DNA of 64,000 bases, from positions 1 through 64,000 of the forward strand of contig CAIRES010000042.1 in NCBI GenBank assembly GCA_903877645.1, given 5' to 3'. The notes under the pieces are model-generated. The model did no database searches and was not told the origin of the DNA. It was given only the letters and a program-made list of their open reading frames with translations. This DNA comes from an uncultured Bacteroidota bacterium. Lineage in GTDB: Bacteria > Bacteroidota > Bacteroidia > Chitinophagales > Chitinophagaceae. The position numbers and the translations under genes were made by a program. Shown here piece after piece: positions 36,027 to 61,402 of the stretch; within the stretch, counting starts at the first letter, position 1; each line of letters starts with the position of its first letter.

Positions 36027-36117
36027 CAAAGGTGAAGCGCATTTTTGGAAACAACAATTTGAATATCTATGACAGACGCGTACAAGTCTATGACAGCGCG
36101 GAAAGCGCGCTGTCATA
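36027..36117 (-). promoter_or_regulatory. Promoter A: -7-like box plus three TATGACAG half-sites 21 bp apart
   Basis: Half-sites at 36068-36075 (TATGACAG), 36089-36096 (TATGACAG) and 36110-36117 (CTGTCATA, inverted). The last two form a perfect 12-bp stem palindrome with loop GAAAG. On the minus strand a -7-like CACCTTTG (36027-36034) lies exactly 33 bp from the nearest half-site. The next gene on that strand is the small terminase (start 35977). The same layout, mirrored, occurs at 61312-61402. Confidence 0.8.
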
Positions 36118-36324
36118 AAACTTTTTTCTGTGGATAACGTGTATCAGTTACTTGAATTTCTATGCAATAAACATGCGCATATTATTGCTATGGCAAAGTG
36201 CCGTGGAGCGAAGTGAAAAGCAGGATGCCCCGTCATAAAATGAGTGAATTTCTTAATGCATTAAAAGAGCAAGTACATGAAATATATTGTTTGGTATCCG
36301 GCTCAAATTCCGGCACGGCAGAGT

Positions 36325-36483
36325 TCATGCAGAAGCGCTTGTAGGTGGGTGGTATCGGTGCGGGAGCAGTAGGGGATTGTTTTTATGGTCGGGTATGATG
36401 TTGCTGGCCCGCTGATTACCGTTGCCGCAACTGGCGAAGAACAAGGTGCCAATAGCTATTGAAATGAGTGTGGTTGTGCACAT
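36325..36483 (-). CDS. Possible small lipoprotein (52 aa), perhaps a broken gene
   Basis: From ATG 36483: MCTTTLISIAIGTLFFASCGNGNQ, a lipoprotein signal with lipobox FASC (Cys19), then 33 residues to a stop at 36325. The +1 frame continues for a short way with a plausible peptide (TDTTHLQALLHELCRAG), so the gene may carry a frameshift. Lies between the block A promoter and the divergent acetyltransferase. The remainder of 36118-36562 shows no other gene. Confidence 0.35.
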   Translation of the reverse strand: MCTTTLISIAIGTLFFASCGNGNQRASNIIPDHKNNPLLLPHRYHPPTSASA

Positions 36484-36562
36484 GATGTGTTATAAAAATA
36501 CCGCTTTATATGCGAATAGCTGCCCGGAATGGTTTGGGTACACAGGTACTTTAATAGTTTAT

Positions 36563-36570
36563 TAACTTTG
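36563..36570 (+). promoter_or_regulatory. -7 box (TAACTTTG) for the acetyltransferase
   Basis: TAACTTTG matches TAnnTTTG, 16 bp before the ATG at 36587. Confidence 0.55.
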
Positions 36571-36586
36571 CCGCCATTCATTGGTT

Positions 36587-37138
36587 ATGATCGGGCAGCT
36601 AACTATATACAGGGCAGACATACAGGATATAGATATACTGGCACATTTGAGTATCAGTACATTCCGCGACGCATTTGGCCAGGCCAATACCAAGGAAGAC
36701 ATGGACAAGTACCTGGCCGAAGAAATGAGCCGTGAAAAGTTATACGCAGAATTGAATGACAAGGATAATTGTTTCTTTATGGTGAGTGACCATGAGCGGG
36801 TTGTGGGTTATGCCAAAATGCGCGTAGCTGATATACCTGAAGAACTTGCAGGTACTAACCCTATAGAGGTAGAGCGCATCTATGTGCTACAGGCATACCA
36901 CAATAAAAAGATAGGCACTGTGCTTATGGACCACTGCATAACATTTGCCATGCATGGAGGCTATGATGTACTGTGGCTGGGTGTATGGGAGCATAACGGC
37001 GGGGCCATCCGGTTTTATGAACGCCTGGGTTTTGAGCTGTTTGGTGCACACAACTTCCTGCTGGGGAACGATATGCAGACAGATGTGCTGATGAAGAAAA
37101 AATTAAGTGGTAGTGATCATATCACTACCACTTCGTAA
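36587..37138 (+). CDS. GNAT-family N-acetyltransferase
   Basis: 183 residues from ATG 36587 (MIGQLTIYRADIQDI). Core GNAT features: VVGYAKMRVADIPE (beta 4), VERIYVLQAYHNKKIGTVLMDHCI with the acetyl-CoA pyrophosphate loop (the usual R/Q-x-x-G-x-G/A reads H-N-K-K-I-G-T), 'LWLGVWEHNGGAIRFYERLGFELFG' (motif B). Similar to polyamine/amino-acid N-acetyltransferases (PaiA-like). Its last ten codons form one arm of a terminator palindrome shared with the convergent M16-like gene. Confidence 0.9.
   Translation: MIGQLTIYRADIQDIDILAHLSISTFRDAFGQANTKEDMDKYLAEEMSREKLYAELNDKDNCFFMVSDHERVVGYAKMRVADIPEELAGTNPIEVERIYVLQAYHNKKIGTVLMDHCITFAMHGGYDVLWLGVWEHNGGAIRFYERLGFELFGAHNFLLGNDMQTDVLMKKKLSGSDHITTTS
37097..37133 (-). 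terminator. Terminator hairpin inside two convergent coding ends
   Basis: Perfect 13-bp stem AAGTGGTAGTGAT/ATCACTACCACTT (37105-37117 and 37121-37133), loop CAT. On the minus strand it is followed by AATTTTTTC (37097-37104), so it should end M16-like transcripts. The stop codon of one gene and the last codons of the other lie in it. Confidence 0.75.
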
Positions 37139-38400
37139 TATGCTTTCGGGTTGAAATATTTTTGTGCCAATGCCTGTAACTCCTGTGCCGTAACGCTTTT
37201 GTATATCTGTACGTTATTATTGAAATAGTCTTCGGTAAAGCCATTTAATATAAGCGTCCGCCAGCGTTGCAGTATAGAGAAAGGTCCATCAAGGTCGCCG
37301 AGGAGGCCGCCGAGGAGATAGTTTTTAACGAGGAGCAATTCGTCTTCGTCGGCAGCTTCGTTGCAGAGGACATCCATTTCATGGTATATCTCTTTTATCG
37401 CCTTTTCCACAACATCCCTGCCTGTTTCTGTATGAATAACAAAAGAGCCTCCATTCAACTCGGGAGAAAGTGAACTATAAATACCGTATGTATAGCCTTT
37501 GTCTTCGCGTATATTGCTCATCAACCGGGAGCCAAAATAGCCGCCGAACAAAGTATTAAGGACTACAAAAGGAGTGTAGTCGGGGTGGTGACGATTAGGA
37601 AATAAACTGCCTATCCGTATAGCTCCCTGTACGCCATTAGGGTCATTGCTGATGTGGTGTACCCTTTCGGTCATGGCCGGCACCTGAAAAATACCTGTGT
37701 TGACTATTTTTTTCCCTGTAGCAACCTTTCCAAAAAAATCATTCAGGTACTTTACTTCTTTATCGCCAACCTGCCCTGCCATAAAAATACGTGCATCAGC
37801 AAAATTGTAATTGTTTTTATGAAAGGCTACGAGGTCTTCGCGGGTGAGGGCTTCAATGCCTTCCTTCTTTGAGAACCTACCATAAGGATGGTCTTCCCCA
37901 AATAACAACAGATCAATTCTTTGATTAGCTACAAACTCGCATTGGCGGAGATTGATCAGTAATCGCTGAACCGTATTCTGCTTGTAGATGCCGAGCTCAT
38001 GCTCAGGAAAAGTAGCTTCCATGATCACCTCGCGTACTATTGGCAACAGTACCGGAAGGTGTTTGGTGAGCGAGTAAAGTGTAATAGTCGTAAAATCATT
38101 GCCTGCAGACACTTTAAGCTGTGCGCCGTAAAATTCGAGCGATTCATTTATCTGTTCCGCAGTATATTTCAGCGTGCCATTTTTCAACAGCCCGGCTGTA
38201 GCTTGTGCCACAGAAGCCTTTTGTTCCTGCCACAGGCCTGCTTTAAACATCCAGTCTATTTGTACCACGTCCTGCACACCGGCGTTCAGCCAATATACGG
38301 GCACGCCATTGTCAAGCGATATCTCATTCATTGGAGGAAGCTTGTAATCAAACGTAACGGCATCATGAATTGGTGGTACTATCTTACGATCTAATATCAT
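37117..38400 (-). CDS. M16 (insulinase)-family protein without the zinc site
   Basis: 427 residues with two M16 halves. The N-terminal half should hold HxxEH, but the segment reads GLWQEQKASVAQATAGLLKNGT, so the metal ligands are absent. The C-terminal half keeps YFGSRLMSNIREDKGYTYGIYS, the conserved arginine-tyrosine element of non-catalytic M16B subunits. Such subunits normally pair with an active M16 encoded next to them; no active partner is in this window. Cytosolic or periplasmic: no signal peptide is visible. Confidence 0.85.
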   Translation of the reverse strand: MILDRKIVPPIHDAVTFDYKLPPMNEISLDNGVPVYWLNAGVQDVVQIDWMFKAGLWQEQKASVAQATAGLLKNGTLKYTAEQINESLEFYGAQLKVSAGNDFTTITLYSLTKHLPVLLPIVREVIMEATFPEHELGIYKQNTVQRLLINLRQCEFVANQRIDLLLFGEDHPYGRFSKKEGIEALTREDLVAFHKNNYNFADARIFMAGQVGDKEVKYLNDFFGKVATGKKIVNTGIFQVPAMTERVHHISNDPNGVQGAIRIGSLFPNRHHPDYTPFVVLNTLFGGYFGSRLMSNIREDKGYTYGIYSSLSPELNGGSFVIHTETGRDVVEKAIKEIYHEMDVLCNEAADEDELLLVKNYLLGGLLGDLDGPFSILQRWRTLILNGFTEDYFNNNVQIYKSVTAQELQALAQKYFNPKAYYEVVVI

Positions 38401-38440
38401 CTTGTATACTTAAAGTATTCTTTAAAATTTTGTTTTGCAT

Positions 38441-38956: not shown

Positions 38957-39031
38957 GACCTAAAATTAGGGTATATTATTTGAAGATGTCTTTATAAGGC
39001 ATTAATATACTGCATCGATGAATGTAAAGCA

Positions 39032-40465: not shown

Positions 40466-40483
40466 GTTTTATAGTATTCCGTA

Positions 40484-41686: not shown

Positions 41687-44536
41687 TTATTTACTCAGGT
41701 GCATGCTGCGTTCTTTATATAACTGCCTGAACCACGGGTCGCGCAGGTTCTTAATAAAGCGGATAGCCTCGCCTGTACTCTTCATTTCAGGGCCCAGTTC
41801 TTTATTCACATTCGGGAATTTATTGAAGCTGAAGATCGGCTCTTTAACCGCGAAGCCATCCAGTTTCTGCTGTATCTTCAGGTCTTTCAGCTTTAGTTCG
41901 CCCAGCATCACCTTTGTGGCTATATTGAGGTATGGTATGCGGTAGGCCTTTGCAATGAATGGAGTGGTACGACTGGCACGGGGGTTAGCCTCTATCACAA
42001 AAACCTTGCTGTCTTTTATTGCGAATTGTATATTGATCAGTCCCTTTACGTTCAGGCGCAGCGCTATCTTCCTTGCTATATCGGCCATTTCTTCTACTAC
42101 CAATGGCCCCAGGTTGAACACGGGCAACAAAGCGTGGCTATCGCCACTGTGAATACCTGCCGGCTCTATATGCTCCATGATGCCCATAATGTGCACCTCC
42201 TCGCCATCGCATATCGCATCTACTTCTGCCTCCTGGCAGCGGTCGAGGAAATGGTCTATAAGTATCTTATTACCCGGTAAGTGTTTCAGGAGGCTGACCA
42301 CACTTTTCTCAAGTTCATCGTCATTAATAACGATACGCATGCGCTGCCCGCCCAAAACGTAAGAAGGCCGCACTAATACAGGGTATCCCACTTCCTTGGC
42401 CACATCAATAGCCTCATCGGTAGTGTATGCGGTTCCGTAATTGGGGTAAGGAATGCCCAGCTCTTTCAATGTATCACTAAATCTTCCACGGTCTTCGGCA
42501 ATATCCATACTGTCATAAGAAGTGCCTATTATCTTTATGCCTTTCTCGTGGAGGCGCTGTGCCATCTTCAGGGCCGTTTGGCCACCTAGCTGCACGATCA
42601 CACCATCGGGTTGCTCATGCTCTATGATCTCCCAAAGGTGTTCCCAATACACCGGCTCGAAGTAGAGCTTATCCGCAATATCGAAGTCGGTAGAAACAGT
42701 TTCGGGGTTACAATTGATCATTATAGACTCATAGCCACATTCCCTTATAGCTATAAGGCCGTGTGTGCAGCAATAATCAAATTCAATGCCCTGCCCGATG
42801 CGGTTGGGGCCGGAGCCTAATACAATTACTTTTTTCTTTTTTCCGAGCAGGCTTTCGTTAGACAGTATGGTAGCCGCGCCGGATACGGGCGCACTCTCAA
42901 AAGTGCTGTAATAGTATGGGGTCTTTGCTTCAAACTCGGCGCTGCAGGTATCCACCATCTTGAACACACGGGTGATGCCTGCTGCCTTTCTATGTTCGTA
43001 TACTTCTTCGGCAGTGCAATCTTTTACCAGTTCTGCTATCTGCTCATCGCTAAAGCCCATTTGTTTTGAGCGCCTCAAAAGGTCAACAGGCAGTTTTTCA
43101 AGATGTTTATATTGCCTGATCTCCACTTCCATATTCACAATATCCTGTATCTGGTACAAAAACCACCTGTCTATTTGTGTGAGCTCGCGTATAGTTTTGA
43201 TAGATACTCCCGCTGCCATTGCTTCTTTTATACGGAAGATACGATCCCATGTAGGCCGTTTCAATGAATCTATCAATTCTTCAGGGCGCAACCTGCTGGC
43301 GCTGATAAAAGACAGTCCTGTGGCATTGTTCTCCAGGCTTTGGCAGGCCTTTTGCAGAGCCTCGGGAAAAGTACGGCCAATGGCCATCACCTCACCCACC
43401 GACTTCATTTGCAAACCAAGCGTATCATCGGCACCTTTAAATTTATCAAAATTCCAGCGCGGCATTTTTACGATCACATAATCGAGCGCGGGTTCAAAAT
43501 ATGCTGAGGTGGTTTGCGTTATCTGGTTCTTCAATTCATCGAGCGCATAACCAACAGCCAGTTTTGCCGCGATCTTGGCAATAGGATAGCCTGTAGCTTT
43601 TGATGCCAGCGCTGAAGAGCGGCTTACACGTGGATTGATCTCGATGGCAATAATCTCTTCGGTCTCAGGATTGAGGGCAAACTGCACATTGCAACCACCG
43701 GCAAAATTGCCGAGGTCGCGCATCATCATTATAGAGGTATTACGCATCAACTGGAATGCGGAGTCGCTCAGTGTCATTGCCGGCGCTACGGTAATACTAT
43801 CTCCTGTATGAATACCCATCGGGTCAAGATTCTCTACCGTACAAATGATCACTACATTATCATTCATATCGCGCAGGAGCTCCAACTCAAATTCCTTCCA
43901 ACCCAGCATGGCTCTTTCTACCAGCACCTCGTGCATAGGCGATGCAGTAAGTCCTCTTTCGAGCGCACCATCAAGCTCCTCTTTATGCATCACGATACCG
44001 CCACCGGAGCCGCCCAATGTAAACGAAGGCCGGATAACAATTGGCAAACCTATCTGCTGTGCAAATTCTTTTCCTTCAAGCAATGAGTTAGCCGTTCTTG
44101 CCTCGGCCACAGGCACACCAAGCCTGATCATCCACTGCCGGAACAATTCCCGGTCCTCAGCTTTATCAATAGCCTTTATATCCACACCGATCAGCCTGAC
44201 GTTGAATTTCTCCCATATGCCCAGCTCATCTGCTTCCTTGGCCAGGTTAAGGGCCGTTTGGCCACCCATAGTGGGTAGTACCGCATCTATATCGTTTTCC
44301 TCCAATATCTGTTCTATACTTTCGACCGTAAGCGGCAGCAGGTACACCCTGTCGGCCATAATAGGGTCTGTCATTATGGTGGCAGGATTGGAATTGATCA
44401 ATATCACTTTTATCCCCTCCTCTCTGAGGCTCCTGGCCGCCTGTGAGCCTGAATAATCAAATTCGCAGGCCTGGCCTATAACTATAGGGCCGGAGCCAAT
44501 AATAAGTACACTTTTGATAGAAAGATCGCGCGGCAT
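41687..44536 (-). CDS. carB: Carbamoyl-phosphate synthase large subunit, lacking the MGS domain
   Basis: 949 residues. Two ATP-grasp halves are visible: the first begins [25 protein letters not shown], the second [25 protein letters not shown], each with '[12 protein letters not shown]' / '[13 protein letters not shown]' and '[12 protein letters not shown]' / '[11 protein letters not shown]' grasp loops. The protein ends after '[26 protein letters not shown]', where longer CarB proteins continue with the methylglyoxal-synthase-like allosteric domain (UMP/ornithine site). Makes carbamoyl phosphate for arginine and pyrimidine synthesis; carA is not in the window. Confidence 0.95.
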
Positions 44537-47487: not shown

Positions 47488-48312
47488 TTAGTCGAGCGGT
47501 ATTATTGTGTTGAACTCAAGACCATAGCCCAGGACAGATACGTCTGGCTTGATCCAATTGATATATACGTCTCCAGTAGTATTAACAGCACTATTGACTT
47601 GTTTTATCCAAGCTACTCCCAGATCGTCTTCTATCATACCAGATATAAAGTAGATTGATGTAAAAAAGGTATTATTATTCGGCCTATACCCTACAGGTAA
47701 CGTACACATTAATGAATATGTCGCGGAAGGAGATGCCGCAAAATTCTGCGCATTACTCGCAGTCAAAAAACCTCTGATCTGCAATGTATTCGCCATCATG
47801 TCTTTTTTGTAAAAAATAGTTCCGGTAACACCGCCGCTTGGGGCGGGTGTACTCACCGCAGTAGAATTCCAGGTTGTTTCGCGGCCGTTTTGTCCAAAAG
47901 CCACCTGGAAGGGCTGCAATAAAGAGAGCGGGAATTGTGTAGCGCTCGTTACCGAAGGGCCTACTGATACTACCGCTGTCTTATTAAGCACTGCACCATA
48001 GGTACTACCATCGTTGTAAGTGAGGTTAGCAGCAGTGGGCGTGATGTTGACCAGCACCACATCACCAAAACCAAGCGCCGAATAAGTACTCGGAAGGAAT
48101 TTGATCATTTCGCCGTTATAAAAAAACCAGCCGCCGGCCACGGTAGTCACCCCTAATGAAAAGCTCTGGCTCATACCGGTGATTAATGTGGGGCCTGCAC
48201 CTCCCATCACAGCAATGGCATTGATACATTCTGTATAGGCTTGTTGTAAATAATCCAGTTCGTCCTGCGTGAGCGGGAATCCTCCGGTATGTGTGAAGTC
48301 AATTGCTTTCAT
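47488..48312 (-). CDS. Probable phage tail fibre / receptor-binding protein
   Basis: 274 residues. The N-terminal part (MKAIDFTHTGGFPLTQDELDYLQQAYTECINAIAVMGG) resembles phage tail-fibre collars of Bacteroidota; the middle has 'GWFFYNGEMIKFLPS', a common fibre repeat start, and the rest is beta-rich with Asn/Thr-rich strands. Last gene of block B, where fibres normally lie. It ends 6 bp from the mreD stop, convergent. Confidence 0.65.
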   Translation of the reverse strand: MKAIDFTHTGGFPLTQDELDYLQQAYTECINAIAVMGGAGPTLITGMSQSFSLGVTTVAGGWFFYNGEMIKFLPSTYSALGFGDVVLVNITPTAANLTYNDGSTYGAVLNKTAVVSVGPSVTSATQFPLSLLQPFQVAFGQNGRETTWNSTAVSTPAPSGGVTGTIFYKKDMMANTLQIRGFLTASNAQNFAASPSATYSLMCTLPVGYRPNNNTFFTSIYFISGMIEDDLGVAWIKQVNSAVNTTGDVYINWIKPDVSVLGYGLEFNTIIPLD

Positions 48313-48357
48313 AGTATTTATTTGAGATGATAAAAGGTTAAAGATCCGGGTTGTGTA

Positions 48358-48861
48358 TTAGTAGGTAACGACTGAATAATTACTTCTTCCGGGCAGTCTG
48401 TATTTATCTGTCAGTGCCCTGAGATGCGCCAAATCAAAGACAACCGCAGATGGGACATGTATAATAAAGCATATACCCAGGAAGTAGGTCTCTGCTTCTG
48501 TATATAGCCATTCGGGATCAGGATAGGAAGTGCTGCCTTCTTCACTCACGAGCCCGAGCCATACAGGTTTCACTTCGGGCACAGTATACAGAAACAGTGG
48601 ATCCCTGAAAGGGCCGTCTGTGATATATATTCCCCTGCCGATGTTATCAAAAGCATCATTGAGCACAGCTTCCAGGTAGCAGACTTGTCCATCATGAGCC
48701 AGTACGTAAAGGTTAGACGACCTGTTGGCACTAAATATATCGTAAAGCCATTTCACAGGCGCTACAAGGCATTTCAGCCATGCTATCATTATATCTTTCC
48801 TTAGCTGTACCGGCAGTACCTGCAGCACCAAGTCATCGTAGTTTATATCAAACAATCCCAT
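48358..48861 (-). CDS. Phage baseplate/tail protein (gpI-like position)
   Basis: 167 residues. MGLFDINYDDLVLQVLPVQLRKDIMIAWLKCLVAPVKWLYDIF followed by 'VCYLEAVLNDAFDN' and a C-terminal beta part. The position, between the baseplate J-like gene and the fibre, and the opening helices match the small baseplate proteins (gpI class) of contractile phages in Bacteroidota. No enzymatic motif. Confidence 0.55.
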   Translation of the reverse strand: MGLFDINYDDLVLQVLPVQLRKDIMIAWLKCLVAPVKWLYDIFSANRSSNLYVLAHDGQVCYLEAVLNDAFDNIGRGIYITDGPFRDPLFLYTVPEVKPVWLGLVSEEGSTSYPDPEWLYTEAETYFLGICFIIHVPSAVVFDLAHLRALTDKYRLPGRSNYSVVTY

Positions 48862-48900
48862 CTTAGAAATTTTTTACGGTTCTACATTTTATTCAGGCAA

Positions 48901-49731
48901 CTATACTGTATAAGGCACATAACTAACATGAGCTGCAAACCAGGTAGCATCAAGCACCAGGTATCCGGCATCGGGCGTGTATTGCGTGGTGATCACTACA
49001 GGTGGTATAGATCCATAGAATGCCTGTACACTTACTTCATCAGCAATGATCACCCCATCTATATCCTGCATAGCTGTTACAAAATTGTTGAGAATAAATA
49101 CCCCGTTAAATGGCAGGTTAGCAAGGAAAGCATTGATAGTATCCTTAACAGGTGTAAAAGTTGTTCCATCAAGTCTCGCACCGGTGCTGTCCAATACAAG
49201 CGGATCATAGTAGATCACCAACGTCGGCTGAAAAGTATCAGCAGGGCCACTGGTGCATTGCAACCGGACACCAGCATCTTTTATTCGCCCCATGTAAGTA
49301 GTAAATGCAGCCAATTGTGGTGTACTTAATGCAGCTAATGACCCGGCGGCCCCGGTAGCAGCCTTTATTCTGACGAGATTTGTTAATTCGATGGCGGCAG
49401 CGTAAGTCACTACAAGGCTTGGATCACCGGCAGATACCACCGGGTCATACACATCGCTTCCGGATGGTAGTGTTGCCCCGTATTGGAATGCCCTGGACAT
49501 GATCACGTACCATTGCAAGGTGTGGGGTTTTTGTGTGGCTATGATGCTGTTCACCTCAGTTACGTGGTCATCATATAGTACCTCAAGTGTCCAGTGGCAA
49601 AAAGCCACTACGTACGTCCACAGGTACCATATAGCTACCGCGCTGGTGCTGGTAAGCAACGGGCCTAATGTTATATCAGCTGTTTTTGCATCTACTATAC
49701 TTTGCTGTATCTGCGCTATTGTTCTTGCCAT
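48901..49731 (-). CDS. Baseplate J-like protein
   Basis: 276 residues. MARTIAQIQQSIVDAKTA, 'STSAVAIWYLWTYVVAFCHWTLEVLYDDHVTEVNSIIATQKPHTLQWYVIMSRAFQYG' and the late 'INAFLANLPFNGVFILNNFVTAMQDIDGVIIADEVSVQAFYG' are the pattern of Mu gp47/gpJ-like baseplate wedge proteins. The wedge joins the hub to fibres. Located after the gp25-like and LysM-like genes in block B. Confidence 0.65.
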   Translation of the reverse strand: MARTIAQIQQSIVDAKTADITLGPLLTSTSAVAIWYLWTYVVAFCHWTLEVLYDDHVTEVNSIIATQKPHTLQWYVIMSRAFQYGATLPSGSDVYDPVVSAGDPSLVVTYAAAIELTNLVRIKAATGAAGSLAALSTPQLAAFTTYMGRIKDAGVRLQCTSGPADTFQPTLVIYYDPLVLDSTGARLDGTTFTPVKDTINAFLANLPFNGVFILNNFVTAMQDIDGVIIADEVSVQAFYGSIPPVVITTQYTPDAGYLVLDATWFAAHVSYVPYTV

Positions 49732-49793
49732 GATTTCATTATTTCAGCACGGGTTCCGCACTTGTTTTTTTAAAAATATTTCTTTGTTTGCCA

Positions 49794-50777
49794 CTACCGC
49801 ACTTCTACTACACACTGCATACCTGATCCTGGTAAAATGCCTCCTGTATAATTGTAGTTGCCAAGTACACCAAATGTATAAGTGCCGGCAGCCAGCGTAC
49901 AACAGAGTTTATTAGGGTTCGTAGGGTCAGCAGGATCGGGACCAAGGCTTGTGATCCCGGCACCCCCCAGTATTGCATCGTCCCGCCAAATCATGCTATT
50001 AACCGTTAATCCGGTAAGGACAGGAGTATAATGACCCCTCGTAAGGCGTACCACTACCCCACCTGGTACTGAACTTACTAACGTTACATCTAACGACGGC
50101 ACCAGGAACTCTTTAACCGCTTGGGTAGTTGCATCAAGTATGATCACAGGAGTGCAACGAGCCTGGTTGCCATTTACATCTTCAAACGTGGCCAGGGACG
50201 CCGGATCTAAGGTGCCGAAAACGATCATATAACTGTGACCGGCAGTCCATGGTATTTTATAAGCAATACTTTCCAATGACATATCAGTGGCTACAAGTTC
50301 ATTTGCAGTAGCCGATACTCCTCCCAGGAGGTCTGCAGTTATATGGTGTACCGTATTAGGCTCACTGGGATAACTCCCTACACCAGAGACCAGGCCATAA
50401 ACCGATATGAAACCTGTGTCCCCATCCACACTGAACTGATAATTGTGGATAATTGAAGGTGCGCTTGCGGTAGTAGGTACAGCCTTAAGTATTGGCATCA
50501 ATATGATTTCCATAGTTAATGGCGGTGGTGGCGTGAAAGCAAGTGTCCCTATCACATAACCATTCTGGTTGAGGTATCTGCATACATAGGCACCCGCTGA
50601 ACCTGCTGCAGATATGCATGTATCACTTATTCTGTATACATTTCCCACAGCGGGCATATCACTTATTGAGACATTATTATCCCGGCAAAATTGCGCAGCC
50701 CCTTCCAATGATCCACATCCCATGATGATCACATCCTGCATACTCTGGTTTGGCTTTACTATTATAGTGGTACTCAT
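49794..50777 (-). CDS. Phage baseplate-associated protein with LysM-like N-terminus
   Basis: 327 residues from ATG 50777 (MSTTIIVKPNQSMQDVIIMGCGSLEGAAQFCRDNNVSISDMPAVGNVYRI). This start is a LysM-like module: 'VKPNQSMQDVI' then a helix and a 'GNVYRIS' strand. The remainder is beta-rich with 'TADLLGGVSATANEL' and Ig-like strands. In tailed phages a LysM-like protein near the baseplate often acts in cell-wall contact. Function inferred from place and motif only. Confidence 0.55.
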   Translation of the reverse strand: MSTTIIVKPNQSMQDVIIMGCGSLEGAAQFCRDNNVSISDMPAVGNVYRISDTCISAAGSAGAYVCRYLNQNGYVIGTLAFTPPPPLTMEIILMPILKAVPTTASAPSIIHNYQFSVDGDTGFISVYGLVSGVGSYPSEPNTVHHITADLLGGVSATANELVATDMSLESIAYKIPWTAGHSYMIVFGTLDPASLATFEDVNGNQARCTPVIILDATTQAVKEFLVPSLDVTLVSSVPGGVVVRLTRGHYTPVLTGLTVNSMIWRDDAILGGAGITSLGPDPADPTNPNKLCCTLAAGTYTFGVLGNYNYTGGILPGSGMQCVVEVR

Positions 50778-50820
50778 AATTAATCTTTTCAAACTCTATT
50801 AATAAGATGAACAATCGGCA

Positions 50821-51120
50821 TTAAGGGTAATATGCGTCAGTATTGATCATACCAGCCTGATCGAGAAGAATTCGCTTTACATTCATTCCGTCTCTGGTAA
50901 ACTCCACACTAATAGCCCTGATCAATTCCTGCAAATGCTCATCATCAAAGTATTCAAATGCGCCAACACAAAGCGTAGGGTTTTGCTTGAAGTCACCCTT
51001 ATTATTGAGGATCAGCTGCTTTTGGTGTTGGGCCGTACTTTCGGAGTATGTGAAGTCGCCGGCTGTTATTGCGGTATCGGCATTATCTGTAAGTGCTATG
51101 TCTATCATTTTAGTTGCCAT
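50821..51120 (-). CDS. Baseplate gpW/gp25-like wedge protein
   Basis: 99 residues: MIDIALTDNADTAITAGDFTYSESTAQHQKQLILNNKGDFKQNPTLCVGAFEYF, 'QELIRAISVEFTRDGMNVKRILL'. The 'Q..LIL...GEFxxxPxxGxG' element of gpW/gp25 proteins is present in degenerate form (QLILNNKGDFKQNPTLCVGAFEYF). gp25-type proteins start baseplate assembly in contractile systems. Confidence 0.75.
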   Translation of the reverse strand: MATKMIDIALTDNADTAITAGDFTYSESTAQHQKQLILNNKGDFKQNPTLCVGAFEYFDDEHLQELIRAISVEFTRDGMNVKRILLDQAGMINTDAYYP

Positions 51121-51125
51121 GGTTG

Positions 51126-51695
51126 TTAGTGTTTTATGGTGGTGTCTTCAATACTACTATAGCTACCTAATGAATCAGTAGCTATTGCCAGCTGTAATTT
51201 GGCTTGCAATGCACTTGGTGCTCCGCTTCCGGGTTCATCAATAGGCACTCCGTTGATTACAGCAATTAAGTGGCTAAGCAGCGTGGTCGTTTTATCCAGT
51301 TGTGTCTTCAATTCCGGTGTGATCGTAAGTCCACCATGGCTACCATTATTAAATTGAATCAACCCATCTGTCACTGTCACTTTGCTCGATCCTAATAGGA
51401 CGGACACCCTCGCCAGATCGCTTGCTTTTAGCAGCGTCCATTCACCCGGCCCGTCTATACTACCGATGATCACATTACTATTGTCTTGCGGTAGTAGCAC
51501 GACACCGTTCTCGTCGTTTGTGATCGCATTCAGTAGCACGCCTTCAATCGCTTCGGAGCCATCGCTGGGCAGTACAGCCATAGTGTACATTGTCGCATCT
51601 ACGCTACCTGCTACTACCGTTCCGCTGATGATCTCGTAGGGCCTATGCGTTAGCTCCCGGATACCTTTTCTAATTTTATCTGTATTCTTTGTCAT
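51126..51695 (-). CDS. Baseplate spike-like protein (gpV/gp45-like)
   Basis: 189 residues. N-terminal OB-like strands (YEIISGTVVAGSVDATMYTMAVLPSD, 'GVLLNAITNDENGVVLLPQDNSNVIIGSID') and a repeat-like end with 'SSKVTVTDGLIQFNNGSHGGLTITPEL', the beta-helix-like spike of Mu gp45-class proteins. The C-terminal helix ends IEDTTIKH. Its start overlaps the gpD-like stop (shared 51695). Confidence 0.7.
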   Translation of the reverse strand: MTKNTDKIRKGIRELTHRPYEIISGTVVAGSVDATMYTMAVLPSDGSEAIEGVLLNAITNDENGVVLLPQDNSNVIIGSIDGPGEWTLLKASDLARVSVLLGSSKVTVTDGLIQFNNGSHGGLTITPELKTQLDKTTTLLSHLIAVINGVPIDEPGSGAPSALQAKLQLAIATDSLGSYSSIEDTTIKH

Positions 51696-52732
51696 TAGCT
51701 GTTGTTATTAGCAAATCCTAACTGCGGCCCTATCCCTATTATTCTTCTTGCGCCTGCGGTGCCAAAATGAACTTCCATATCTTCGATGATGTAGGTTCCA
51801 TTGCGTTCGGGGTATCTGTCGTCACTTATATAAGCGGTATAACCGGGGATAGTGTATGGCTGCAAAAAGGTATTGATACTGCCTTCATATCCTGCATAAT
51901 TTTTCCTGTATACGGTTTCATTAGCCAGTTGCTTCAGCGCAATTGCATCTGCAACATGGTTGAGTATCTTTTTGTGGGTGCGAACAAATTTCTTGAAGGC
52001 ATCAGATGTCCCTGATAACTTATCCCCGTTACCGAGCTTCTTTGAATATTCTACCTGCACGGGGTCATTCTCAGTTGTTCGTTCTTTCAGGTCATTTGAC
52101 TTTAGCAGGTTGTACCCCAGGCGATAGTTGACTGTACCTATATTTAAAACATCGGTTCCTTTTGCATAAGGCGTGTACAATATTCCACACCACAATACTC
52201 CCGGCTTTATAAAAAAGCAAGACAAGCTGCCGTCTGTATATTTCGACAGGCTGTTAATGACATCTAAACCACAGCCGGATACGCCCACATTGCTTAGGGT
52301 AATATCAATGTCGCATTGCACGCTGATGGTGTGCTTGCCATCTATACCGGAAACAGCGTCCGTCAAAAGGTCCTTTATAGTGACCGATGGATAGAATTTA
52401 TCTATAGTATTCCTCCGCAACAGCCAGCTATATCCTTCGCACTCTACCTCCATCGGCATACTTAGGCTGCATCTTTTCACAAAGCCCGTAAACTCTGTTT
52501 GCAGGTCATTATTATAGCCCAGCTTTATAGTTACCGGATCTCCATCCGAAAATTGCTTGCCGGTAATAACCACATCAGGCAACACAGAGCCTTTAGTTAC
52601 CACTCTTGCTATAGAAGGTATTTTTATGGTGGCTGTCTCCATTATGCTATGTAGACTCCGGCTAATGCTAATCTCATTAACACCATTGAATCTGAAGTTG
52701 CCAATCGTAATATCACTTACAAGTACAAACAT
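51695..52732 (-). CDS. Tail hub protein (gpD / late control D-like)
   Basis: 345 residues: FVLVSDITIGNFRFNGVNEISISRSLHSIMETATIKIP, 'KLGYNNDLQTEFTGFVKRCSLSMPMEVECEGYSWLLRR', 'YGIE..YPYAKGTDVLNIGTVNYRLGYNLL'-like strands and a C-terminal 'YIIEDMEVHFGTAGARRIIGIGPQLGF'. This is the split beta-barrel layout of gpD/gp44 hub proteins at the centre of the baseplate. It overlaps both neighbours by 1 bp, so the genes are translationally coupled. Confidence 0.75.
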   Translation of the reverse strand: MFVLVSDITIGNFRFNGVNEISISRSLHSIMETATIKIPSIARVVTKGSVLPDVVITGKQFSDGDPVTIKLGYNNDLQTEFTGFVKRCSLSMPMEVECEGYSWLLRRNTIDKFYPSVTIKDLLTDAVSGIDGKHTISVQCDIDITLSNVGVSGCGLDVINSLSKYTDGSLSCFFIKPGVLWCGILYTPYAKGTDVLNIGTVNYRLGYNLLKSNDLKERTTENDPVQVEYSKKLGNGDKLSGTSDAFKKFVRTHKKILNHVADAIALKQLANETVYRKNYAGYEGSINTFLQPYTIPGYTAYISDDRYPERNGTYIIEDMEVHFGTAGARRIIGIGPQLGFANNNS

Positions 52733-53400
52733 TATGATATGGATATAAGGTTAAAAGGTTCGTCGCTAACAAGATGCAATTCGTATGGCCGTACGTTTTT
52801 GACACCTGTGATAGACGGAAATATCAATTCTTTGATCACCACCTGGTCGCTGCCACTTCTGTCTGGCCTTAACAGGAATATATCTGTTAAAGGGCATTGA
52901 ATAGATAAAGCTATGTTTTGCTCATACAGGTCGCGCAGGATTGTTACATCTGCTTCCGGAAATTCATTTGTGTTGCTGATGATAAAACCCTTGACAACTA
53001 TTTCGTAGTCCTGGATGTTTATTAATTCTTTCACCGTTCCACGTCTTTCCGTTAAAGGAGTTTCAATGATCGTCTTTCTCGAAGTGATGGAAATGACCGG
53101 GTACGGCAACCACCAATCTTTTAGCAATCCCAAATTATCGCTCCCTGCCAGTAAAGCATCTTCGCTATTTAGCTTTGCATCATCGGGGTAGGTCACTTTT
53201 ATTGGCATGAAGTATTCCCTGCCATTGGCATCATTGCCATAATAAGCGCTGCCCTGCGAGCCACTATCTGTTCTGCGAAGCGCGCTTGCATTCAGGCTAT
53301 TATCGTTAGGTACAGGTTGAAACTGCGGATCGAACGCCTGGGTCTTGTAGCCAAATGCTTGTTCAAACAGATCGGCCAGGTCAAATGTTATCTCTGCCAT
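52732..53400 (-). CDS. Phage tail protein (DUF6046-like)
   Basis: 222 residues: MAEITFDLADLFEQAFGYKTQAFDPQF, 'GREYFMPIKVTYPDDAKLNSEDALLAGSDNLGLLKDWWLPYPVISITSRKTIIETPLTERRGTVKELIN' and 'YEIVVKGFIISNTNEFPEADVTILRDLYEQN'. I recall this pattern from a Bacteroidota phage family (DUF6046) next to hub and tape-measure genes; it may fill the role of Mu gp43, the DNA circularisation/hub-associated protein. The name is from memory. Confidence 0.6.
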   Translation of the reverse strand: MAEITFDLADLFEQAFGYKTQAFDPQFQPVPNDNSLNASALRRTDSGSQGSAYYGNDANGREYFMPIKVTYPDDAKLNSEDALLAGSDNLGLLKDWWLPYPVISITSRKTIIETPLTERRGTVKELINIQDYEIVVKGFIISNTNEFPEADVTILRDLYEQNIALSIQCPLTDIFLLRPDRSGSDQVVIKELIFPSITGVKNVRPYELHLVSDEPFNLISIS

Positions 53401-56400: not shown

Positions 56401-56832
56401 TTATGCAGTTTCCAGTTTCAGGAAAACAATAGGAAGGGTCACGTCCATGTTCTTTGCACCCTGCTCCCATCCTTTTTCAAAATCTTTTACTTCCACATTC
56501 ATTAATGTGTCTGTCTGCAATGGCCTTGTTCCTTTGGGCTTGTAAGTGATGATGATGTCGAATTGCATATCTAGTATGTCGTCGCCACCTGCTGCTATAG
56601 CTGCGCGGTTCATATCATCTATTGCGCCCTTCAGCACTTTTATCTGGCCTTCGTAGCTTCTGTTGCCGCTTTGTATGCTTATCGGCTCATCGCCGGCGGC
56701 ATGCAGCAATTGTTTTTCTTTCGCGGCTTTATATTTTACCCCGCGTATCTTGGTGAGTGGCGACCCGGCAAATATTACCGTCATATCGGCCCACTCACAA
56801 TCTTTACTGTCAAAAAATGGTATTGATGGCAT
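56401..56832 (-). CDS. Tail tube protein
   Basis: 143 residues from ATG 56832 (MPSIPFFDSKDCEWADMTVIFAGSPLTKIRGVKYKAAKEKQLLHAAGDEP). 'ADMTVIFAG..LT.IRGVKYKAAKEK' and 'YKPKGTRPLQTDTLMNVEVKDFEKGWEQGAKNMDVTLPIVFLKL' are the strand pattern of tube proteins that stack inside the sheath. Placed directly after the sheath gene, as in Mu (gpL then gpM). Confidence 0.7.
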   Translation of the reverse strand: MPSIPFFDSKDCEWADMTVIFAGSPLTKIRGVKYKAAKEKQLLHAAGDEPISIQSGNRSYEGQIKVLKGAIDDMNRAAIAAGGDDILDMQFDIIITYKPKGTRPLQTDTLMNVEVKDFEKGWEQGAKNMDVTLPIVFLKLETA

Positions 56833-56897
56833 GGAATAGTGTATTATGATGTACAATATCATGTACTGTATGATCGGGTTAAAAAATATTTAGGGAA

Positions 56898-58079
56898 CTA
56901 CTGTGCAGGATTATCAAAGCCAAGGCTTATTTCTATGTCTGTGGCATATCCCACCGGTGTTACGGTCAGCACTACATTCAACTCGTTGGTACTCAGGATA
57001 TTTTGTGCAGGATCTATAAAGCAGCTAATTGCGCTTATTTCCCTGTTGGCGGTCATAGTATTATTCACCTGGTTCACGATCTGTTGGCTCAGCCACTTGC
57101 AAAAGCCAGCATCCAGTGTACCATCGGCATTAACAGGTACTTCGTCATCTATCTCCTGCACAAATGTGGTGTAGGCCAGTATATGGGCTTTATCTATCAC
57201 CCTGCCGCGTGCCAGCATACAATAGTCATCGGTGGTGGCAGTAAGCATTGGGTCACCACTAAAGAAATACCCGCTTACGTTGGGGTAAGTAATGAAGGTA
57301 ATAAACCCTTTACCCGCTATCACTGAGGCATCACCGCCACTTTCTTCAAGAGTCGTAGAATTCAGAAACGCAGTAGTATTGGTTAGCGCACCGGATCTCA
57401 CCCTGCTAATTTTTCTTTGCACGGGTATCGATGCTGCTACCCCCAGCAGCAGGCCCACACATGCGGCATGGCCGCTCACAGTATCACCTATCAATATAGC
57501 GGTACGGTTATTGGTTGTTCCAGTTGTTTCATCCGTAAGGCCGGATGGAGTCCCTGCATAAGAGCTGCCGCCTATCACGCACCTGAATGGCTTTTCTGCG
57601 TCAAAGTATGCTGCTGCCATTACCGCCATGTTGCTTGCTGCAGTATATACATCGGCATTCAGCGAGTGTGTTACCGTTATAGTGCCGCCACCGCTGGCTA
57701 CGGCTACATCATCACTCAGCAATCCCAGCAATTTTATCTTGCCGTTGGCATAATCCAGCAATTTTTTTGCGCCATTAAGGTTGGTATGGTCTGCCATCTC
57801 TGCTATTGTTACAGATGCGGCTGTCAGCATCAGGTACAGTTGTGCGCCATCGCCTGCCTGGTCATAAAACTCCTGTAGTTGTTTTATGGCAAAGGGGTTA
57901 AAGGTTTCCGTTATACCCGCATTGGCTACATCTGTCATGCCGGTTACTAGTATTGGCGTACCGGTGGTATAGCCACCGCTCTCGGTAACGCCGGTCAGTA
58001 CCATACCGGCTATACCGTCATTCGTTTGGATCGTTCCTCCAAGCTGGCAGTTGGCCAGCGTAATATTTACACTTCCCAT
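56898..58079 (-). CDS. Contractile tail sheath protein (DUF2586)
   Basis: 393 residues: MGSVNITLANCQLGGTIQTNDGIAGMVLTGV, 'ILVTGMTDVANAGIT', 'FNPFAIKQLQEFYDQAGDGAQLYLML', 'NAVMAAAYFDAEKPFRCVIGG' and the C-terminal 'WLSQQIVNQVNNTMTANREISAISCFIDPAQNILSTNELNVVLTVTPVGYATDIEISLGF' typical of sheath domain I. A sheath means a contractile (myovirus-type) tail that injects by shortening. Confidence 0.78.
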   Translation of the reverse strand: MGSVNITLANCQLGGTIQTNDGIAGMVLTGVTESGGYTTGTPILVTGMTDVANAGITETFNPFAIKQLQEFYDQAGDGAQLYLMLTAASVTIAEMADHTNLNGAKKLLDYANGKIKLLGLLSDDVAVASGGGTITVTHSLNADVYTAASNMAVMAAAYFDAEKPFRCVIGGSSYAGTPSGLTDETTGTTNNRTAILIGDTVSGHAACVGLLLGVAASIPVQRKISRVRSGALTNTTAFLNSTTLEESGGDASVIAGKGFITFITYPNVSGYFFSGDPMLTATTDDYCMLARGRVIDKAHILAYTTFVQEIDDEVPVNADGTLDAGFCKWLSQQIVNQVNNTMTANREISAISCFIDPAQNILSTNELNVVLTVTPVGYATDIEISLGFDNPAQ

Positions 58080-58106
58080 TGTTGGTTTTGTTTTTTGAAT
58101 CTGTTA

Positions 58107-58346: not shown

Positions 58347-58410
58347 GAGCTTGGTTATTCAATTGATTGGATTTAAAGAGGCTGGGGGAAATATATCTTG
58401 TACTGCATTA

Positions 58411-58848
58411 TTATGAGCCTGTCTTTGAAGCCGAGTATTTAGCTTGCGTGTACAGATCATACAGGCTTTGTTTAAGGCGCTGGCCATCCAGCGTACCTGC
58501 CAGAAGGCTGGCCAATTTTTGCAATACTGCATCCTGCAATAGCGGATCGCGCTGTTGTAGCTGTTGCACAAAGCAGGACAGCTTATCGTTTGCATCGGTA
58601 TATTGCTTGCAGGTATCGGCTATGGTTAGCGCATCTATTACTTTCGTTAACGCTGCTACCAGTTCCTGGCGTATCTCATCATCCAGCTCGCCGGGTATGA
58701 TGGCTGTGATGACATTTGCCGCAGGTGAGGAAAGCATTGATTTAAGCGCCGATGTTATTTGCAGGGCTGTATCTATATGCCCGTCTATATAATTATCAAA
58801 CTCTTTGAGCAATGCCTTTACCTGTGTCTTTAGTTTTGAACAGAACAT
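58411..58848 (-). CDS. Helical phage protein, unknown (head-tail region)
   Basis: 145 residues, almost wholly helical (LKTQVKALLKEFDNYIDGHIDTALQITSALKSML, 'IPGELDDEIRQELVAALTKVIDALTIADTCKQY', 'LLQDAVLQKLASLLAGTLDGQRLKQSLYDLYTQ'). Two Cys. In Mu-like gene order this slot holds head-tail joining or decoration proteins, but no motif decides. Confidence 0.5.
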   Translation of the reverse strand: MFCSKLKTQVKALLKEFDNYIDGHIDTALQITSALKSMLSSPAANVITAIIPGELDDEIRQELVAALTKVIDALTIADTCKQYTDANDKLSCFVQQLQQRDPLLQDAVLQKLASLLAGTLDGQRLKQSLYDLYTQAKYSASKTGS

Positions 58849-58860
58849 AGTTATTTGGTT

Positions 58861-59139
58861 TTATTGTTGGTGGTTGTTTTGTATCACACTTGTTTCCAGT
58901 GTGTGTATGCGTATAGAATGCTCACTGAGGCGGCGGTGTATCAAGGCATCCTGCTCCTGTAGCCCTTTTATCTGCTGGCCTTGTATCGTTGTTGCGCGGG
59001 TCAGTTGCTTCAGCTCCAGCACTATATCATCCAGCCGTTTAATGACCTGGCCTGTTACCACTTTCATGATAAAGCCCAGTATAGTAGCCATAATACCCGC
59101 CACCCCAATAAGTATCCATATTTTAATTTCAGAGACCAT
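58861..59139 (-). CDS. Small TM plus coiled-coil protein, holin-like candidate
   Basis: 92 residues: one N-terminal TM (IKIWILIGVAGIMATILGFIMKVV) followed by a helical stretch 'QVIKRLDDIVLELKQLTRATTIQGQQIKGLQEQDALIHRRLSEHSIRIHTLE' with heptads. XhlA/holin-accessory proteins have this shape. If it is a holin partner, no endolysin is seen in either block. 12 bp upstream of the 145-aa gene, downstream of capsid. Confidence 0.5.
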   Translation of the reverse strand: MVSEIKIWILIGVAGIMATILGFIMKVVTGQVIKRLDDIVLELKQLTRATTIQGQQIKGLQEQDALIHRRLSEHSIRIHTLETSVIQNNHQQ

Positions 59140-59189
59140 ATCTCTTTATGTAAGTTGTTAAATGAACCGTTGATCCATTAATCGCATAT

Positions 59190-60104
59190 TTACGCTGCGG
59201 CCTGCACTATTGATATGATGCCCTTGCCATCGGCACGGCGTATCCTTGCACCCATACGCACACTCACGCTATATACATCGCCATACAATGTAGGGTCGCC
59301 TATACGCTCAAAGAAGGTGATCTGTCCCAGCGCCCTTTCTACTGCGCCTATCTGCCAGCACAGTACGCCGTCATTGTCGGTTGCGTTGGCTGCGCTGCCA
59401 TAAGGGTTTACAACGGGTGTGCTGTCGTTGGTATAGGTAACTACACCCCCACGCATCATTATATTGAAACCAAAGAGCCTGCCCAGTACACCATCTTTTA
59501 CGTTGTATGCCGCGCTGAAATCGCGGTACTGTGTTACGCTCATGTCATCTGTCAGTTGCTGAAACATATCTGCACTGATGAGTGCGTACCTGCCTTCCAT
59601 AGGCACGTTCTGTTTGTTCAGTTGCAACTGTGCGTTCTTCAGGTCAACCACCGTAAAACGGCAGCGGTTGCCGGTAGTGCCGGCAAGTGTGGTAGCCGTC
59701 GAAGACCCTGTGGTACGCACTATTGTGCCTACACCACCTGTGGGTGCCCAGTCTATCAGCAGGTTATCGGCCACTGTTTGCCTCAGCGAAGACTCATACT
59801 CACCCAATACACTTTCGCGCTTGTTGTAGCTCAGTTCATACGCTTCAGCATTAGGGATCAGTATCGGGTCTGTGGTAAACTCATCCAGTGCGTAGGTGAT
59901 GTCCGAGTCTGTACGCTGCACTACTGTTGCCGGCAGGCTGGTTCTGTTTTTTACTACGTTGGCTGTTGCCCCTGCTTGTGGTATATGCACTACATGCCCC
60001 TGCAATACATACTGCCCAACGTCTGTTGATGCCAGTAAGAACTCATTGTTCTTAAATAGGTTTCCTTCGATGTGGTCTTGCCAGATCTCTTTTTGGATTG
60101 CCAT
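59190..60104 (-). CDS. Major capsid protein
   Basis: 304 residues: AIQKEIWQDHIEGNLFKNNEFLLASTDVGQYVLQGHVVHIPQAGATANVVKNRTS, 'DITYALDEFTTDPILIPNAEAYELSYNKRESVLGEYESSLRQTVADNLLIDW', 'ENRYALISADMFQQLTDDMSVTQYRDFSAAYNVKDGVLGRLFGFNIMMR' and the C-terminal 'ISIVQ'. This is an HK97-fold capsid of the 'AxxELSxxKR' class, and follows the protease/scaffold gene by 187 bp as expected. Confidence 0.8.
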   Translation of the reverse strand: MAIQKEIWQDHIEGNLFKNNEFLLASTDVGQYVLQGHVVHIPQAGATANVVKNRTSLPATVVQRTDSDITYALDEFTTDPILIPNAEAYELSYNKRESVLGEYESSLRQTVADNLLIDWAPTGGVGTIVRTTGSSTATTLAGTTGNRCRFTVVDLKNAQLQLNKQNVPMEGRYALISADMFQQLTDDMSVTQYRDFSAAYNVKDGVLGRLFGFNIMMRGGVVTYTNDSTPVVNPYGSAANATDNDGVLCWQIGAVERALGQITFFERIGDPTLYGDVYSVSVRMGARIRRADGKGIISIVQAAA

Positions 60105-60291
60105 TGTTTACTTGTTTTTGGTTAAAAATTTGAAGATGAATGAAATAGTGGGTGGGATACGGCTATTAAAGACATAGCCATTTAATGCCCCGGCCGGAGC
60201 GATATACTTACTACAGTATAGAATAGAAAACTACAAGGCCTTACCAGGTCAGAAGAACAGCGCACCCGGCCTGCTTAAAAGGGAATGGAAA

Positions 60292-61284
60292 TTATGCTGC
60301 AAACTTTTTCTCAAACAGTTCTTTATATCTTATTGCGTCATTAGCCTTCAGATCTTTCAGCTTTTTGCCTGTGGGGTCGTTTGTTTCGTAATCATCCCAC
60401 TGCCATTGCGCTTCGGTCTTATCCTGCTGCCTGCTTTTTAGTTGCTCAGTTATAGACCTGTATGCGGGCATCACTGCCAGTAGTTCTTTTAAGCCATCGG
60501 GGTTTAGGGCATAGTCGTGGGCCAGTTTTTCTTTCAGTACTACTGTTATCTTTTTATCTTCCAGTGCGCGGTCCAGTGTGGCTGCGATCTCGTATTGGCC
60601 ATGTGCCGCTTTAAGGTCAGTGATCTGTTGCTCCAGTGTTTGCCGGTCATTACTTAGTGTAGCATTTTCCAGTTCCAGTGCATTTGTCTTTGCTGCCATG
60701 CTTTGTACTGTAGCCAATATTGTATTGTTGTCTGTTTCATCTGCCAGTTGCAATAGATGGCGCAGCTCATGGGCTATATTTTGTTGCAGTGCCTTTATTA
60801 CGGGTGGCATTATGCCCAGGTCCACGAGGTTCAGCTCATTTTCCTGTGCGTCATACAGCCTTGTAAGTGCATTGCAGTTGCCAGGTATATCCACCAGGCT
60901 ACATTCTTTGTTGTACCACTTGGTGATGGTGGGGCCGGTTTGGCCGGGCAGCATCAGCTCGGGGTCTGTGCTGTATTCCAGTACTACTATATGCCCTACC
61001 GATGCCGCATTCAAAAAGCCATTTTCGGCCTCATCGCATAGCTGCACACCTCTTGCATTAGATAGGTTGATCACCGGCACGCCCACCACCTGGTCGTCTT
61101 GTATTTGCAGGTCTTCCCATTTCAGCGCTATGCCATCTTCCCTGCGGTGCATATAATAGCCTATGGGGTTTTTCTTAAAGGCCGGTAGCTGGTAGCCCGA
61201 TGTGAGCAATCTGAACCCGTACTCATTTACTGTACTGTCCGATAGCACATATTGCCTGTCAATTTTCTTAAATTTGTCTGTCAT
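60292..61284 (-). CDS. Prohead protease with C-terminal scaffold (Mu gpI-like)
   Basis: 330 residues from ATG 61284 (MTDKFKKIDRQYVLSDSTVNEYG). N-terminal protease fold: FLNAASVGHIVVLEY and ECSLVDIPGNCNALTRL, matching the 'xxSLVDIPANPxA' string of HK97-type prohead proteases. The C-terminal 150 residues are coiled-coil (NALELENATLSNDRQTLEQQITDLKA) and probably scaffold the head, as in Mu gpI. I reject the start at 61314 because the -7-like box at 61312-61319 lies over it. First gene of block B. Confidence 0.78.
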   Translation of the reverse strand: MTDKFKKIDRQYVLSDSTVNEYGFRLLTSGYQLPAFKKNPIGYYMHRREDGIALKWEDLQIQDDQVVGVPVINLSNARGVQLCDEAENGFLNAASVGHIVVLEYSTDPELMLPGQTGPTITKWYNKECSLVDIPGNCNALTRLYDAQENELNLVDLGIMPPVIKALQQNIAHELRHLLQLADETDNNTILATVQSMAAKTNALELENATLSNDRQTLEQQITDLKAAHGQYEIAATLDRALEDKKITVVLKEKLAHDYALNPDGLKELLAVMPAYRSITEQLKSRQQDKTEAQWQWDDYETNDPTGKKLKDLKANDAIRYKELFEKKFAA

Positions 61285-61311
61285 GATAGGGATTATCGTT
61301 GTTTGATGGCA

Positions 61312-61402
61312 CAAAGATGAAACGGATTTTGGAGCCGGTCAAATCGTGTTTCTATGACAGCGCGCTTTCCGCGCTGCCATAGTCACCGGCTGTGCTGTCA
61401 TA
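61312..61402 (-). promoter_or_regulatory. Promoter B: -7-like box plus three TATGACAG half-sites 21 bp apart
   Basis: Half-sites at 61353-61360 (TATGACAG), 61374-61381 (CTGCCATA, one mismatch, inverted) and 61395-61402 (CTGTCATA, inverted). The first two form a 12-bp stem palindrome with loop CTTTC. On the minus strand CATCTTTG (61312-61319) lies exactly 33 bp from the nearest site. The flanks are also alike: GCACAAAG at the box and GGATTTTGGA/GCATTTTTGGA beside it. Upstream of the protease gene. Confidence 0.8.

Follow-up and report, generated by a model that had tools for sequence, protein, structure and literature searches.

Phased three-site arrays before two separated operons of a Mu-like phage in a Chitinophagaceae genus: putative late-promoter operators of a domesticated, possibly gene-transfer-agent-like element

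In bacteriophage Mu, the C protein switches several late operons via sites upstream of each. In the Mu-like phages of Bacteroidota, such as those of P. gingivalis (BK068093, BK068095, PP754930) and hankyphage, an operon for portal, adaptor, large terminase (TerL) and small terminase (TerS) is divergent from a protease-capsid operon. Gene transfer agents (GTAs), namely RcGTA, CcGTA, BaGTA, Dd1, VSH-1 and VTA, derive their particle genes from phages, inherit them vertically, keep them at several loci and maintain them by purifying selection. Here we consider a 64,000-nucleotide stretch (hereafter, the window; positions 1 to 64,000 of contig CAIRES010000042.1, assembly GCA_903877645.1) of an uncultured bacterium of the family Chitinophagaceae, which contains the packaging genes (block 1) and the capsid and contractile-tail genes (block 2) of a Mu-like phage, each block being preceded by an array of three short half-sites. 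The two blocks resemble the Mu-like phages of Bacteroidota in operon composition and in sequence (capsid 45-48% identical, TerL 44%) but differ from them in that the operons lie apart, each has an array, and the blocks yielded no transposase. As with the Mu late promoters, one phage protein is proposed to serve several late operons, but through three phased sites that are possibly common to two divergent promoters; no relative of Mor or C turned up, although no search was aimed at either. The GTA-like traits, in turn, are combined here with a Mu-like origin and a Bacteroidota genus, any gene transfer being putative. It appears rather probable to us that the arrays are late-promoter operators of a domesticated, GTA-like derivative of a Mu-like phage, that a single trans-acting protein reads them, with a small protein related to the DNA-binding domain of DnaA (DnaA_C) as the candidate, and that they descend from a two-way ancestral array.

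Re-reading of the window sequence confirmed the array geometry described in the earlier note in every respect, namely the positions and strands of the half-sites with their single mismatch, the 21-bp spacing, both promoter boxes and the 33-bp gaps at both loci. The block-1 array (36068..36117, minus strand) has sites at 36068 and 36089 on the plus strand and at 36110 on the minus strand, the order being ><< on the promoter strand, and lies 33 bp from the -7-like box CACCTTTG (36027..36034, minus strand), which is kept in the block-1 promoters of relatives; the -33-like element ATTG (36055..36058, minus strand) is located 20 bp before the box. The block-2 array (61353..61402, minus strand), with one site on the plus strand (61353) and two on the minus strand (61374 and 61395), shows the order >>< on the promoter strand and is separated by 33 bp from the -7-like box CATCTTTG (61312..61319, minus strand), with the -33-like element TTTG (61340..61343, minus strand) again 20 bp before the box. 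The sole half-site mismatch in these arrays is TATGGCAG at 61374. The sigma promoter consensus of Bacteroidota consists of TTG/TTTG, a gap of about 19-21 bp, and TAnnTTTG; compared with it, the window promoters have ATTG or TTTG, 20 bp, and a CAnCTTTG-type box. The presence of CA instead of TA is compatible with an activator-dependent promoter, as had been suggested, without being proof of one. Considered over all copies, the array unit comprises an A-/T-rich stretch, a site, 13 bp, a second site, 13 bp, the third site, 33 bp including a TTTG-like -33 element, and a box that reads CACCTTTG or GACCTTTA. In many copies, the 13 bp separating inverted sites are near-palindromic (CGCGGAAAGCGCG), a feature that had escaped the earlier note. 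Single TATGACAG words, by themselves, occur in the window at chance level (51 matches with at most one mismatch versus 54.3 expected).

The arrays do stand at both blocks, but they are not restricted to these two places. Pattern and model searches found 18 arrays in the 3.84-Mb draft source genome (all genomes compared are drafts): two at the blocks, four before TerS-like genes, and 12 for which none of these genes lies within 4 kb. Besides the two in the window, one array lies 6.7 kb past its right end (C42:70702) and the others are on further contigs; the copy on C45 has a spacer one base short, and that on C88 a damaged box. The direct TATGACAG pair at 21 bp has 10 exact copies in the genome versus none for the reversed-pattern control (20 versus 4 when up to two mismatches are allowed), and the inverted pair occurs at 7 places exactly and at 13 with up to two mismatches, versus 2 for the control. 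The full three-site pattern, with up to two mismatches, is found 12 times in the source genome, 12 times in the relative G023 and twice in G006, and is missing from the other 37 of 40 genomes, whereas its reversed control gives no match across all 40. A chance origin of the arrays is rejected because of these controls of the pair (0 exact) and three-site (0 in 40 genomes) searches. In viral contigs, the two-site pattern matched 63 stretches (L068-L130), which are probably due to chance, the pattern being so short. The array model, R1, was trained on 36 arrays (15 from the source genome, 12 from G023, 2 dispersed ones from G006 and 7 block-2 promoters of other relatives), and the scores of those 36 are not independent because the arrays trained the model; its E-values are rough, and its match counts take in both strands of palindromic arrays, so that 33 matches in the source genome correspond to 18 places.

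The conservation check proposed in the earlier note came out in favor of the arrays: in relatives that possess the phage genes, both blocks still have a three-site array, which is separated by 33 bp from a CACCTTTG-type box. Among the matches listed, R1 at E 0.001 detects arrays in every one of the 16 same-genus genomes and in none of the 8 same-order genomes, the matches outside its training including block 2 of G011, G002 and G012 and block 1 of G008 and G013; several of the matches in G002 are weak. Of 24 relatives, 12 have a match to the first gene of block 2, encoding the protease, and 15 to the large terminase, all of these matches falling in the 16 same-genus genomes and none in the 8 same-order ones. 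In 11 of the 12 genomes with a protease gene, a rigid scan placed a three-site array ahead of it (G002 weak, G004 missed), and, before terS, the order was ><< in 9 of the 11 species read and <<<, by score, in G011 and G005. The half-site letters vary among species (TATGACAG, TATGATAG, CATGATA), while the 21/21/33 bp geometry persists. In five orthologous arrays of the source genome and G023, 5 of 120 half-site bases and 2 of 50 box bases have changed, compared with 17 of 130 in the spacers, 27 of 165 in the stretch that separates array from box, and 21 of 100 directly upstream; the difference between half-sites and spacers has a Fisher p of 0.014.

Two separate designs are not needed for the mirrored orders in the window, since both can derive from a single bidirectional array. 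G009 contains a compact, diverged copy of the system (C37), a Mu-like prophage that encodes a repressor, a transposase, a MuB-like protein and a reverse transcriptase; in the gap between its TerS and protease genes, a single array is flanked by two boxes, at 34 and 32 bp on either side. In G024 (C831), the gap between the divergent terS and protease operons likewise contains a lone array flanked by boxes, at 33 and 33 bp; the corresponding gap of G043 has three phased sites, and two P. gingivalis phages carry GTTGCAACG repeated at 22 bp. Since >>< read from one side is ><< from the other, the window pair would be accounted for by duplication of one two-way array. As side observations on the G009 prophage, its reverse transcriptase (L378 12549-13562) possibly belongs to a diversity-generating element as in hankyphage, and near-identical exported proteins of 174 residues flank the prophage on both sides (L378 504-1028 and 3619-4143; L379 1991-2515 and 4807-5331).

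Outside the window, 65 arrays were collected (from the source genome, G013, G007, G002, G023 and G006), 19 with a TerS-like gene within 4 kb and 46 without; at least 5 of these 46 lie on contigs that stop within 700 bp downstream. Beyond TerS-like genes and one ortholog of a block-1 gene, no phage structural genes were found within 4 kb of the dispersed arrays. The orphan TerS-like proteins have about 150 residues in common with the block-1 TerS and, in 5 of 5 tested, the same best PHROG family; the ten genus genomes searched contain 5-15 such matches each. In the source genome, an array is located upstream of 5 of the 10 TerS-like loci, and 12 of 40 further loci from eight genomes match R1 across most of the model length. 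A second TerS-like group (L338-L341, L351-L355, L357-L361, L370, L374) is preceded by ATATCCACA-type sites and a TAACTTTG-type box, not by the three-site array. Decay of promoters was considered as the origin of the gene-less arrays and discarded: their half-sites, TTT-type -33 region and box (mostly GACCTTTA) are intact. In one ortholog pair (L041/L140), the source genome has array and gene and G023 the array alone, so that gene loss or gain accounts for at least one gene-less array. Downstream of the gene-less source arrays (L252, L253, L254, L035, L037, L042, L045), GGGACAT words, CGGAAAGAATCGGAAA-like tandem words and GTTATCCACA sites were observed.

A further-reaching version of the favored reading, which we consider unlikely, would take the system for a Mu-derived GTA that has lost its transposase and is split into three blocks (including the regulatory one described below) tied by a two-way operator, with the gene-less arrays serving as dispersed packaging starts and the orphan TerS proteins reading them; the host would then steer which regions are packaged. 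The arrays might also be pac-like sites in the first place, bound by small-terminase-like helix-turn-helix (HTH) proteins that use the dispersed copies to initiate the packaging of host DNA, with the promoter being secondary. Such sites would suit a TerS that retains its HTH, a TerS-like family with 5-15 matches in each of 10 genomes, and the intact half-sites of the 12 gene-less arrays among the 18 of the source genome; still, the fixed 33-bp link to a -33/-7-like promoter and the array before the protease operon make this quite improbable. It is also distinctly unlikely that each TerS-like protein regulates itself by reading the array before its own gene, even though the arrays upstream of half of the source TerS-like loci and of 12 of the 40 further ones, as well as the different promoter type of the second group, would agree with self-regulation. 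Both explanations are weakened by the source paralogs, which, at 24-30% identity to the reference and with differing HTH regions, have identical array half-sites; the half-sites track species rather than paralog. Identical half-sites before old paralogs point to one reader protein per genome, which fits the favored reading that the arrays of one genome are read by one common trans-acting protein.

The rigid distance between array and box and the orthologous positions before both operons across the genus also make it highly unlikely that the arrays are a dispersed repeat, such as a repetitive extragenic palindromic (REP) element or a miniature inverted-repeat transposable element (MITE), lying near phage genes by accident. 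The 18 copies in the source genome could suggest such an element, as could the several contigs that end near arrays, which indicates that the sequence nearby is repetitive. However, comparison of the G007 copies with each other by BLAST revealed no common ends or terminal repeats and unequal flanks; for this one species, the array as a transposon, or as any REP-like unit with common ends, was accordingly discarded.

The blocks themselves are vertically inherited. The block-2 genes found by tblastn have the same order and the same neighbors, carB and putative mre genes, in 8 of 8 relatives with long contigs; the names mreB/C/D, helicase and N-acetyltransferase-like are assigned by sequence resemblance. 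Block 1 varies in position: in G013, G004 and G006, it is divergent from block 2 at a distance of 3-4 kb, with a helicase-like gene in between in G013; it lies at about 25 kb in the source genome and G011 and at 122 kb in G002, and on contigs other than that of block 2 in G007, G010 and G012. Of 35 genus genomes, 28 contain the capsid gene, as do 22 of the 25 of good quality, and, in an order-wide sample of 298 genomes, there were 11 capsid matches including the source, at 68% identity in G153 and 23-48% in the others. G153, which belongs to another genus of the family, has a protease-capsid pair (C3, L308) whose upstream 3 kb match neither TerS nor TerL, so that the split of the blocks may predate the genus. 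The phage genes of the blocks are mostly single-copy and evolve under purifying selection: the ratio of nonsynonymous to synonymous substitution rates (dN/dS) between the source genome and G023 is 0.028 for the capsid protein, 0.057 for the protease, 0.068 for TerL (160 residues) and 0.129 for TerS, dS being saturated in most other genome pairs. Across nine genomes, five phage genes diverge in step with the host genes (Spearman 0.43-0.71, Mantel p 0.0005-0.0095). Given open frames, dN/dS of 0.03-0.13 and the same place in 8 of 8 relatives, it is scarcely credible that the blocks are scattered, functionless remains of a decaying prophage, although no transposase is seen at the three blocks, the operons are apart, and a few genomes lack parts.

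A third, regulatory block supplies the candidate reader. In the 8 loci read, its order is an S24/CI-type repressor, a divergent MuB-like ATPase, DnaA_C and Gam, with a 105-residue protein between DnaA_C and Gam called in part of the loci; the family assignments were checked on one to three species. In the source genome, it occupies contig C69 (L410 925-4158: S24 repressor, MuB-like, DnaA_C, small protein, Mu Gam). The repressor is 81-87% identical across the species read and 48% identical to that of the G009 prophage, which itself encodes a 148-residue early protein with the HTH of DnaA domain IV; the source DnaA_C is 35% identical to the latter (E 7e-16). Besides DnaA itself, a small DnaA domain-IV protein is present in 33 of 35 genus genomes, the exceptions (G041 and G006) both being incomplete, and 18 of the fetched proteins align clearly. 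A tblastn search of 50,697 phage records (E 1e-3) gave no match for the DnaA_C of either the prophage or the source genome. GafA, the direct activator of RcGTA, is described as having a domain that resembles the DNA-binding domain of DnaA (PMC6363796). By this analogy, DnaA_C is perhaps the array reader, a tentative candidacy to which we give less than an even chance; its target might be the array, the perfect DnaA-box-like TTATCCACA upstream of the block-1 array (36129..36137, minus strand; exact in 8 of the 11 species read), or neither.

The working of the system can be envisaged as follows. In the ancestral phage, one three-site array between divergent operons would have served both promoters, and, when the operons separated, each would have retained an array, one reading >>< and the other ><<. 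These arrays would now be operators directly upstream of the -33/-7 promoters of the late operons terS-terL-adaptor-portal and protease-capsid-tail. One trans-acting protein per genome would read them, its specificity and the half-sites co-drifting between species. A repressor would keep the regulatory block off until damage or stress lifts the repression; then DnaA_C or another factor, putatively acting as an activator, would bind the arrays upstream of the -33/-7 promoter, and the late blocks would be switched on jointly with some dispersed terS-like genes, yielding particles that may carry host DNA.

Several observations weigh against this favored reading. No TerS-like gene is found within 4 kb of 12 of the 18 source arrays and 46 of the 65 outside the window; several block-2 promoters have a weak third site, and the block-2 pair of the source genome and G023 is altered in the half-sites (2 of 24) and not in the spacers (0 of 26). 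With respect to the two-way array, all three sites in the G009 prophage share one direction (>>>), the third site in G024 is weak and an unsupervised scan there favored another AT-rich repeat, and most of the 14 compact terS-protease gaps scanned had no clear array. A capsid match is missing from 3 of the 25 good genus genomes. R1 finds no array at the regulatory block that encodes DnaA_C. As for the loss of the transposase, none was seen between the repressor and the MuB-like gene in the third-block loci read, and the G009 prophage transposase, used as a query against 249 fetched loci, had no match; the latter negative is weak because the sister MuB query missed all but one known MuB-like relative.

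Measured against the described systems, the blocks share with the GTAs the head, tail and packaging genes, vertical inheritance under purifying selection, and the spread over several loci; of the replication functions, MuB-like and Gam are present, and neither the regulatory block nor the fetched loci yielded a transposase. The block-1 TerS has a Terminase_5 HTH, whereas a TerS without a DNA-binding domain occurs in known GTAs (PMC11841831), a trait that is not strictly defining. A complete Mu-like prophage would be contiguous and contain a transposase, as in G009; here, host genes are located between the blocks. Lateral transduction in Bacteroides is reported in PMC12946183, and the TerS-protease promoter region is not treated in the portions available of PMC12135933 or PMC10367356. 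The open-access literature on GTAs and domesticated prophages in Bacteroidetes, Bacteroidota, Chitinophaga and Chitinophagaceae contains, among the matches listed, no GTA in Bacteroidota.

The gene content of the blocks, all on the minus strand, is in line with their assignment. Block 1 starts with the TerS-like HTH protein (35525..35977; Terminase_5 22.6 bits, phrog_4151), for which an AlphaFold model of the protein alone is too poor for use (mean pLDDT 48.8), followed by TerL (33935..35470; phrog_38, E 1e-72), a protein of no family with a signal-like start and an acidic tail (33277..33837; relatives with 48-50% identity in G013 and G011), the head-tail adaptor (32798..33232; phrog_195), the Mu-type portal protein (30934..32055; PF06074, E 1e-61), two exported proteins with at most weak outer-membrane similarity (29591-30860; weak relatives at the same place in G013), and, at the block end, a phrog_6911 protein (28875..29387), which follows the portal in G013 and G011. 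The host gene carB, for the large subunit of carbamoyl-phosphate synthase (41687..44536), lies between the blocks. Block 2 comprises the Mu-like protease, or I protein (60292..61284; PF10123 27.2 bits, cut-off 25.2), the major capsid protein (59190..60104; PF19821, phrog_267), two small proteins of no firm family (58411..59139, namely 58861-59139 and 58411-58848), the tail sheath (56898..58079; DUF2586, phrog_907), a probable tail tube, by position (56401..56862; PHROGs labels 'major head protein' and 'tail protein'), two baseplate-hub proteins (51695..53400, namely 52732-53400, phrog_5233, and 51695-52732, phrog_4930) and further genes (47488..51695, at 51126, 50821, 49794, 48901, 48358 and 47488) in an order conserved in relatives, those searched being without family.

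The two-way array offers a simple account of the mirrored promoter sites, namely one switch duplicated as the operons parted, and, with no more than the sequence of a species, the array indicates its likely regulon. If the arrays and orphan TerS proteins did act as packaging starts and readers, the host would steer which chromosomal regions the particles carry. With a genus-wide split Mu-like cluster that is under purifying selection and includes a repressor and a candidate activator, the existence of a GTA in Bacteroidota would become directly testable. The relatives retain the switch, whose probable origin is a single two-way switch in an ancestral virus; this genus may therefore harbor a domesticated virus particle, possibly one that packages genes.

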